A DNA stretch of 64,000 nucleotides from SAR202 cluster bacterium bin87 (lineage in GTDB: Bacteria > Chloroflexota > Dehalococcoidia > Lucifugimonadales > UBA3495), in contig MPNC01000002.1 of NCBI GenBank assembly GCA_002238825.1, positions 425,180-489,179 on the forward strand. Direction: 5' to 3'. A program made the translations under genes and the position numbers. Numbering within the stretch: the first letter of the stretch is position 1; each line of letters opens with the position of its first letter. The notes below the pieces were generated by a model. The model searched no databases and was not told where the DNA came from. It saw nothing but the letters and a program-made list of their open reading frames with translations. This document shows positions 34,926-46,351 of the stretch, one piece after another.

Positions 34926-35071
34926 CAGGGTTTTTCGATTGCGGACATCTGTCATTGCGAGCGAAGCGCGGCAATCTCGTGCAGAATGGAGCGATCCTCG
35001 CGAGAGGTGGTCCCGGACCCAACGAGATTGCCACGGCGCAAGCGCCTCGCTATGACAATCGAAACGCCCTG
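34926..35071. repeat. long-hairpin dispersed repeat (GTCATTGCGAG family), copy 2
   Basis: Inner arms start GTCATTGCGAG (34951-34961) and end CTCGCTATGAC (35046-35056). Outer arms CAGGG...TTTCGATTG and CAATCGAAA...CCCTG pair with one internal 9-base bulge on the left. It occupies the gap before the peroxiredoxin gene. Confidence 0.8.
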
Positions 35072-35126: not shown

Positions 35127-35194
35127 CCCTGCCAACCCCGCCGGAGGGCCAGCCGTTGCATCCCGCCCGCCCGGCATAATCGAGGAGAATCTAG

Positions 35195-35662
35195 ATGCCA
35201 GGTCAAATCGGCGACACCGCGCCGGACTTCACTCTCCCGTCTCCCAACGACGGAGACATCTCTCTGAACACCTACCGCGGCACCCACACCGTGGTTCTGT
35301 CGTTCCACGTACTGGATTTCACCAGCGGTTGAACGGATCAGGCCACCTCCTTCCGCCGTTACAACGCGCGGTTCCAGGAGTTGAATGCCCAGGTGCTGGG
35401 TATCAGTTGTGACCACGTAGCCGCTCACCGGGCCTGGACCACCACCATGGGCGGGCTCCCCTATCCCGAACTGTCTGACTGGCATCCCAAGGGCCAGGTG
35501 ACCACCGCCTACGACCTCTGGAACGACGAGCGAGGTGCCGGAACCCGCGCCGTGATCGTCGTCGATCCGCAGGGCGTTATCCGGTATCGCGAGACCTACC
35601 AACCGGGCACGCTTCCGGACCCGGAGACAATCCTGCAGGCCGTCTCTGACATCAACGGCTGA
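35195..35662 (+). CDS. peroxiredoxin (AhpC/TSA family) with in-frame TGA at the catalytic position; candidate selenoprotein
   Basis: The frame from ATG 35195 (GAGGAG seven bases upstream) gives MPGQIGDTAPDFTLPSPNDG, a typical peroxiredoxin start. Codon 46 is TGA (35330-35332), exactly where the peroxidatic cysteine is expected: the usual pattern FTxxC-T-x-E/Q reads VLDFTSG-TGA-TDQATSF here. The frame stays open beyond it and encodes the rest of the fold (NAQVLGISCDHVAAHRAW, PYPELSDWHPKGQV, RAVIVVDPQGVIRYRETY) to the stop at 35660-35662, 155 residues. Reading TGA as selenocysteine gives a complete enzyme that would reduce peroxides. Alternatives are a nonsense mutation (one base from TGC or TGT) or a sequence error. 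A downstream hairpin can form, but it is not a convincing bacterial SECIS. Confidence 0.75.
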
Positions 35663-35700
35663 CCGGACATCAACGGCTAGTCGAAAATCAGCGGCTAAAA
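35649..35700 (+). repeat. 18-bp triplicate repeat carrying three in-frame stops
   Basis: Three consecutive 18-base units, the first two beginning GACATCAACGGCT and the third AAAATCAGCGGCT, place TGA (35660-35662), TAG (35678-35680) and TAA (35696-35698) in the peroxiredoxin frame. Confidence 0.8.
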
Positions 35701-40516: not shown

Positions 40517-40789
40517 ACCGAAGCATACTGCGACGCCGAGGACGCCCTCTACCGTTCCGTTTGGGACGCAGAGGGCTCCCTGCTCTGGGGCGTGTTCGAC
40601 GGCCCCGACGCTCCGGGTTCCGGTTCGCCGAATCCCGGTTCCAACCGTCGCGACGCCTACCCGGCCGCAGGTTACCGGCTGAACGCCATCACCCCGGAGA
40701 ACTCCGGCGCCGCTGAACCCGCTCGCGTGCTTGACCGGGGTTGCGGCAACGATGAGTTGGGCTCGGCGCAATTCCTCTGCATCAAGTAG
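40517..40789 (+). pseudogene. internally deleted relic of the adjacent methyltransferase
   Basis: Seven bases after panD, in a frame opened directly by a TAA and lacking a start codon, 90 codons read TEAYCDAEDALYRSVWDAEG, LLWGVFDGPD, RLNAITPENSG, ARVLDRGCGND then jump to ELGSAQFLCIK and a stop at 40787-40789. The intact gene downstream has YYDAEDVIYRSVWDADGS, HWGVFDSEP, RVLDVGCGNGTN and, about 180 residues later, SELGWAQYLCVKPA. So the relic keeps the N-terminus through the SAM motif and the last 11 residues, with the middle deleted. CAAC occurs at both edges of the break in the intact gene. Confidence 0.82.
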
Positions 40790-40841
40790 ACGCATCATAA
40801 TCCAGGCTACAACAAGATCCAGGCTACGAAAGGAGCTATAT

Positions 40842-41693
40842 ATGGTAACGGGCCACCGGTTTTCGGAACAGGAGACCGAGGAGTACTACGACGCCGAAGA
40901 CGTCATCTACCGTTCCGTGTGGGATGCCGACGGCAGCGTGCACTGGGGGGTATTCGACAGTGAACCCGCCGGGGACGACAACATCCGCCACGAGTTCCGC
41001 AGCGCGGGCATCCGCCTCAACGAACTGATGGTGGAATACTCGGGCATCGGCGCCGACAGCCGCGTCCTCGACGTCGGCTGTGGCAACGGCACCAATGTGG
41101 TCTGGGTGCACCGGAACACTGGCGCTCACGCCACCGGCATCGACCTCAGCGGAGTGCGCATCGCCAACGCCGTCGCTTCTTTGGAAAACATGCCGGACCT
41201 CGCCGGGAAAGTGGCATTCGAGAAGGCCTCGGCCACCGAACTCCCCTACGCGGAGGGCACGTTCACCCACGTCTGGAGCCAGGCCACCGTCTACCATGTG
41301 CCCGACAAGGTGAAGGTGCTCGAGGAGGCCTTCCGCGTCCTCGAACCCGGTGGGCAGTTCATCTTCGATGATCTCATCAAGCCCCGTACCAATATCAGCG
41401 AATCGGCGCGAAAGTTTGTCTACGACCGGCTGCTCTTCGACACCGACTTCAGCTTCTACTCCTACATGGATGCGTTGGTCAACGTGGGTTTCCGCGTGCT
41501 GCAGGCCCGCGACCTGTCGTCTCACCTCGCTCGCAGCTACACCTACCTGTCCCGATTGGCGTCCATCGCGGAAGGTCCCGAGGGATACCAGGACCGGTTT
41601 GACTACCTGACCGATGCCTACATGAAGACGGTAGATGCCATCAACAACAGCGAGCTGGGATGGGCGCAGTACCTCTGCGTCAAGCCGGCCTAG
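40842..41693 (+). CDS. class I SAM-dependent methyltransferase
   Basis: 283 residues. Motif I is SRVLDVGCGNGTNVVW, the acidic loop ATGIDLSGVRIANA, motif II region HVWSQATVYHVPDK and motif III FRVLEPGGQFIFDDLI. The C-terminal part (LLFDTDFSFYSYMDALVNVG) resembles sarcosine/dimethylglycine and related small-molecule N-methyltransferases, though acceptor cannot be fixed. AAAGGAG precedes ATG 40842. A deleted paralogue lies immediately upstream and a second, different methyltransferase follows after 28 bases. Confidence 0.85.
   Translation: MVTGHRFSEQETEEYYDAEDVIYRSVWDADGSVHWGVFDSEPAGDDNIRHEFRSAGIRLNELMVEYSGIGADSRVLDVGCGNGTNVVWVHRNTGAHATGIDLSGVRIANAVASLENMPDLAGKVAFEKASATELPYAEGTFTHVWSQATVYHVPDKVKVLEEAFRVLEPGGQFIFDDLIKPRTNISESARKFVYDRLLFDTDFSFYSYMDALVNVGFRVLQARDLSSHLARSYTYLSRLASIAEGPEGYQDRFDYLTDAYMKTVDAINNSELGWAQYLCVKPA

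Positions 41694-44386: not shown

Positions 44387-46351
<1,965 letters not shown>

Follow-up and report, generated by a model that had tools for sequence, protein, structure and literature searches.

A very probable selenocysteine-containing, AhpE-like peroxiredoxin gene in a SAR202 genome

Peroxiredoxins carrying selenocysteine (Sec, U) constitute an established selenoprotein family (Prx, PF00578, TxxU motif; PMC13188914, PMC2398784, PMC1794560), and the first such enzyme came from Eubacterium acidaminophilum (Sohling 2001, cited in PMC13188914). In the bacterial SECIS (bSECIS) model, the hairpin carries a G in the first two positions of an apical loop of 3–9 nt, although some genes do not fit (PMC13188914). 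Among peroxiredoxins, a histidine located eight positions ahead of the peroxidatic residue is specific to Prx6 and required for rapid HS- reduction, while AhpE has Phe or Tyr at this position (PMC12697902). SelA and SelB are found in most sponge-symbiont bins, and the source of SAR202 bin87 is the sponge Aplysina aerophoba (PMC5649159).

Here we describe, by computation, the frame of a peroxiredoxin gene from bin87, the conservation of its in-frame TGA, the Sec machinery of the genome, a hairpin under selection and the predicted fold of the protein. The gene lies in a 64,000-nucleotide stretch of DNA analysed as a whole (the window). It belongs to an already catalogued selenoprotein class, since TxxU Sec-peroxiredoxins are established; any novelty would lie in its active-site variant. 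A non-exhaustive literature search found no published account of SAR202 Sec-peroxiredoxins.

The reading frame and codon 46

The region from the ATG at 35195 to the TGA at 35660–35662 is one frame with a single interruption, a TGA at 35330–35332. The main features are as follows.

35183–35187, plus strand: Shine-Dalgarno-like AGGAG, 7 nt upstream of the ATG, recognized from the sequence
35195–35662, plus strand: probable Sec-peroxiredoxin gene (AhpC/TSA, AhpE-like), 155 residues long with Sec as residue 46, ending at TGA 35660–35662
35330–35332, plus strand: in-frame TGA, codon 46, probable Sec at the peroxidatic position, from frame reading and homologue comparison

The read-through protein matches Pfam AhpC-TSA with 119 bits (cut-off 26), and the match spans the TGA. 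This codon falls in the context FTSG-U-TDQ, the position of the peroxidatic Cys, and completes a TxxU motif (T43-S44-G45-U46). Compared with the syntenic genome G010, substitutions at codon positions 1/2/3 number 1/2/8 upstream of the TGA and 0/1/6 downstream, third positions holding most of the differences on both flanks.

Using the read-through protein as query against 147 related genomes, we found that nearly all close matches have the identical single internal TGA. In 70 loci read codon by codon, giving 73 homologous frames, the codon-46 column is TGA in 64 and Cys (TGC/TGT) in nine; no residue other than Sec or Cys was seen there in the rows read. A wider scan of a GTDB-based collection yielded further members in SAR202/Dehalococcoidia and, combined with the related genomes, 139 TGA rows and 16 Cys rows, copies of one genome being kept. 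Relatives outside SAR202 that bear the TGA come from Bacilli-named records (Fictibacillus, Mesobacillus, Neobacillus), Deltaproteobacteria, Zixibacteria, Thermomicrobiales and others. The TGA is conserved at codon 46 across the order and in other phyla, with Cys as the alternative, and is found in single-contig genomes such as G002, G006 and G010. Within the genus of the window's genome, codon 46 never departs from TGA, although the frame may close with TAA, TAG or TGA. Plasmid records contain only distant homologues (<60% identity).

TGA is also the normal stop of the neighbouring panD, DUF1989, SprT and thiC frames. A previous sequence-only reading of this DNA had reported a ribosome binding site, a peroxiredoxin frame intact save for one TGA at codon 46, and the location of this TGA at the peroxidatic-Cys site. 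The AGGAG element, the frame with its Pfam match, and the TGA or Cys of the homologues in that column, with no unrelated residue, bear these points out. The same reading had cited three nearby genes ending in TGA, which holds for panD and the DUF1989 gene; the methyltransferase frame that was checked (40731–41693) ends in TAG.

To look for further selenoprotein genes, we compared the window with the syntenic genome, for which 45 of the 64 kb could be mapped; codon 46 was the only TGA that was both shared by the two and set in a convincing coding frame. The other shared cases examined, for example at 45543 on the minus strand inside thiC, were rejected because they lie antisense to real genes or in un-gene-like frames.

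Several further observations concern the surroundings of the gene and its distribution. At 35648–35698, the last codons of the gene are nearly copied downstream, as GACATCAACGGC-TGA, then GACATCAACGGC-TAG, then ATCAGCGGC-TAA. Judged from the sequence, these copies are an apparent short tandem duplication, absent from the relatives compared. Upstream of the gene, the stretch at 34950–35070 is inverted repeat-like (ATTGCGAGCGAAGCGCGGCAATCTCG ... CAACGAGATTGCCACGGCGCAAGCGCCTCGC), resembling a dispersed intergenic repeat. SAR202-like Sec-peroxiredoxins, 55–67% identical, occur in Proteobacteria-, Entotheonella- and Armatimonadetes-named records (L107, L110, L120), which may reflect horizontal transfer or mis-binned contigs.

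Decoding machinery and a hairpin downstream of the TGA

The window's genome contains selA (443 bits), selB (353 bits), selD (373 bits) and a tRNA-Sec (66 bits) with anticodon TCA (UCA), and a search for this machinery, proposed along with the sequence-only reading, thus turned up every component. The selD gene is located on the window's own 727,922-base contig but outside the window (G000:C42:681408-682328). It has an in-frame TGA itself, in ...ELSHCAG-TGA-AAKL..., a position at which SelD is known to carry Sec, and is a selenoprotein candidate in its own right. SelB scores above the cut-off in 130 of the 147 relatives. Three near-complete genomes (G077, G080, G106) are without SelB, a full-score SelA and a close Prx homologue (best E 5e-17 or worse). 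One genome (G069) has the TGA gene, selA and tRNA-Sec, with no selB over the cut-off.

A potential SECIS element is found within the coding sequence directly after the TGA.

35344–35383, plus strand: SECIS-like RNA hairpin, upper stem 35353–35356/35368–35371, lower stem 35347–35351/35376–35380

The pairs tested have predicted probabilities of 0.92–0.97. We folded the 42 nt starting at UGA+12 and compared them with synonymous shuffles. The 64 Sec genes have a mean z of -2.82 and the nine Cys homologues one of +0.34; elsewhere in these genes, ten windows gave mean values between -0.83 and +0.09. A variant of the test using mostly the codon usage of each gene itself gave -2.76 for 83 genes of the order, -1.84 for 22 others and +0.16 for the nine Cys genes. 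Selection on synonymous sites to form an RNA hairpin is confined, within the gene, to the stretch immediately following the TGA.

The alignment of 43 family sequences points to the same element. In the helix formed by columns 17–28 with 38–49, 83% of the cells are paired, versus 74.8% in shuffles and at most 53% when slid, and 34 cells show double changes, versus 13.2 ± 2.4 in shuffles. Six pairs vary on both sides, and one third-position pair is G-C in 21 sequences and C-G in 11. RNAalifold reported no consensus structure for this 43-sequence alignment. The window's lower stem adopts a slipped register relative to the family helix, and the window's hairpin alone is unexceptional against dinucleotide shuffles (z -0.65).

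A hairpin at this place had been noticed from the letters alone. The region then given (35333–35380) was correct and its structure proves conserved and covarying, but the best pairing is the one listed above rather than the stems first drawn. The accompanying doubt over a G in the apical loop is partly resolved: under a simple pairing model, such a G occurs in 23 of the 43 distinct family members and in 37 of 62 others, and the outcome depends on which inner pairs form. The minimum-energy loop of the window's hairpin is UACA. Like the bSECIS model (PMC13188914), the hairpin lies directly 3' of the UGA, with its loop starting ~25 nt after it (model 16–37) and an energy of about -15.6 kcal/mol (limit -7.5). 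Unlike the model, the apical-loop G is inconsistent across the family, and in the window the loop above the 4-bp upper stem measures 11 nt (model 3–9) unless an inner 3-bp stem forms.

Selenocysteine as the reading of codon 46

A natural control is provided by family f24, in which Sec appears to have gone back to Cys with the hairpin lost and SelB kept. Five members of one genus (g40; L051–L055) have Cys at codon 46 and no hairpin (z +0.5 to +1.5). Full SelB is present in all five, and tRNA-Sec and SelA in four, the fifth (G143) being 79% complete. A maximum-likelihood tree built from 115 proteins nests the f24 Cys clade (100/100) within a Sec clade (98/85), and Sec was therefore most likely replaced by Cys in this family. 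This direction has good support, although the length of the branch and the shortness of the alignment leave some doubt. No Sec-to-Cys change is listed for Prx in Table 1 of a 2006 survey (PMC1794560).

The window gene almost certainly encodes a selenoprotein, an AhpE-like peroxiredoxin with Sec46 decoded through the standard bacterial SelB/SECIS route, because the genome holds the machinery, the TGA is kept in 64 of 73 frames, the true stops vary, the hairpin is under selection and f24 shows the reversion. The candidate put forward from sequence alone is thus supported by the machinery, by TGA/Cys homologues and by a selected, covarying hairpin.

Three other explanations were considered. An unusual tRNA might read UGA as another amino acid, such as Cys or Trp, and Cys does occupy the codon-46 column in some homologues. 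This is highly improbable in a genome that has a bona fide tRNA-Sec with SelA, SelB and SelD, whose selD carries a TGA at the known Sec site of that protein, and in which neighbouring genes use TGA as a stop; moreover, a general reassignment would need no hairpin. Harder still to credit is a pseudogene or a sequencing or assembly error, that is, a nonsense change at the Cys codon of a formerly normal peroxiredoxin. A one-base change from TGC or TGT to TGA would look alike in one genome, but here many independently assembled genomes share the TGA, the single-contig ones among them, both of its flanks are under purifying selection, and synonymous selection for the hairpin acts at that place only. 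Such a lesion is effectively excluded because the TGA is conserved, the terminal stop varies and substitutions fall at third positions on both flanks. Least credible is a true stop separating a short peptide from a 93-residue product (35381–35662) begun at the in-frame TTG at 35381, given that the codons between the TGA and this TTG, including the helix after residue 46, are conserved across the order and that the frame is continuous in Cys homologues.

For Sec46 in this protein, we infer insertion, peroxidase activity and reductant along the following lines. SelD would make selenophosphate, with which SelA would turn seryl-tRNA into Sec-tRNA. SelB and Sec-tRNA (Sec, UCA) would then bind the hairpin just downstream of the UGA, and Sec would be inserted at position 46. 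The Sec46 selenolate would attack hydroperoxides to give a selenenic acid, with Thr43 and Arg118 stabilizing the transition state. Reduction of the selenenic acid may be carried out by Cys72, by a thioredoxin- or glutaredoxin-like protein, or by a small thiol or sulfide.

Most sampled members of this order of uncultured SAR202/Dehalococcoidia bacteria possess Sec-decoding machinery and, on this reading, use Sec in a peroxide-defence enzyme. Standard annotation, in which TGA is a stop, would split or truncate the gene.

Active site and comparison with known systems

An AlphaFold model built with 21 sequences has a pLDDT of 94.5 and places residue 46 close to where a helix (44–62) begins. The best match in the PDB is M. 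tuberculosis AhpE (TM 0.93, 35% identity; profile 144 bits). The codons of interest near the predicted active site are listed below.

35306–35311, plus strand: codons 38–39 (CAC GTA), encoding a His placed as in Prx6-type enzymes and a Val replacing the canonical Pro of PxxxTxxC, by alignment (PMC12697902, PMC13188914)
35408–35410, plus strand: codon 72 (TGT), Cys72, conserved in the family and not across all Sec homologues
35546–35548, plus strand: codon 118 (CGC), an invariant Arg interpreted as the peroxiredoxin active-site Arg

Thr43 is invariant in the 139 Sec rows, and Arg118 is present in all 138 that reach that position. The canonical Pro, four residues before the Thr, is absent, with V39 in its place. 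In the 139 Sec rows, which are not one per genome, residue 39 is Val, Ile or Leu in 116 and Pro in 17; at residue 38, 116 rows have His, 19 have Tyr and four have Phe. By analogy, H38 possibly acts as in Prx6. The Cys-reverted f24 clade keeps the His at position 38 and has no Pro at position 39, and these features are therefore not dependent on Sec itself. Cys72 is a possible resolving residue; since it is common but not universal in the family, it may be a lineage-specific one at best. In two f10 genomes (L060 396–1439, L061 356–1360), a Cys peroxiredoxin with the canonical Pro (FFPGAFTGVC) adjoins the Sec-peroxiredoxin gene. The His-for-Phe and Val-for-Pro changes offer a testable lead as to how the requirements of a peroxiredoxin change when Sec is used.

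A more far-reaching proposal would make the SAR202 Sec-peroxiredoxins a distinct catalytic subtype, with an AhpE-like fold, Sec, a Prx6-type His, no canonical Pro and a SECIS class without a required apical G, and possibly reduced by sulfide/selenide or Cys72 rather than thioredoxin. We regard this as tentative and, on balance, unlikely.

The window protein resembles the known Sec-Prx family (PF00578, TxxU) in its AhpC/TSA domain, the peroxidatic Sec, the TxxU motif, the bacterial Sec machinery and the existence of Cys homologues. It differs in that its clade mostly has Val or Ile for the Pro of PxxxTxxU and in its host, a SAR202 Chloroflexota. The protein is not a member of the PrxU subfamily (NCBIfam NF040737), because it scores 64 bits against a cut-off of 270. 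M. tuberculosis AhpE (Rv2238c, 1-Cys) is the nearest solved structure by both profile and fold, and the active-site Thr and Arg are common to the two. However, AhpE uses Cys and Phe37-Pro38, where the window protein has Sec and His38-Val39; PDB entry 5c04 is an AhpE mutant, F37H, altered in the same column as His38. The spacing H38/U46 corresponds to H39/C47 of the Prx6-type 1-Cys enzymes, such as human PrxVI and PfPrx6 (PMC12697902). Prx6, however, has Cys and retains the Pro that follows the His, and in sequence and fold the window protein is closer to AhpE.
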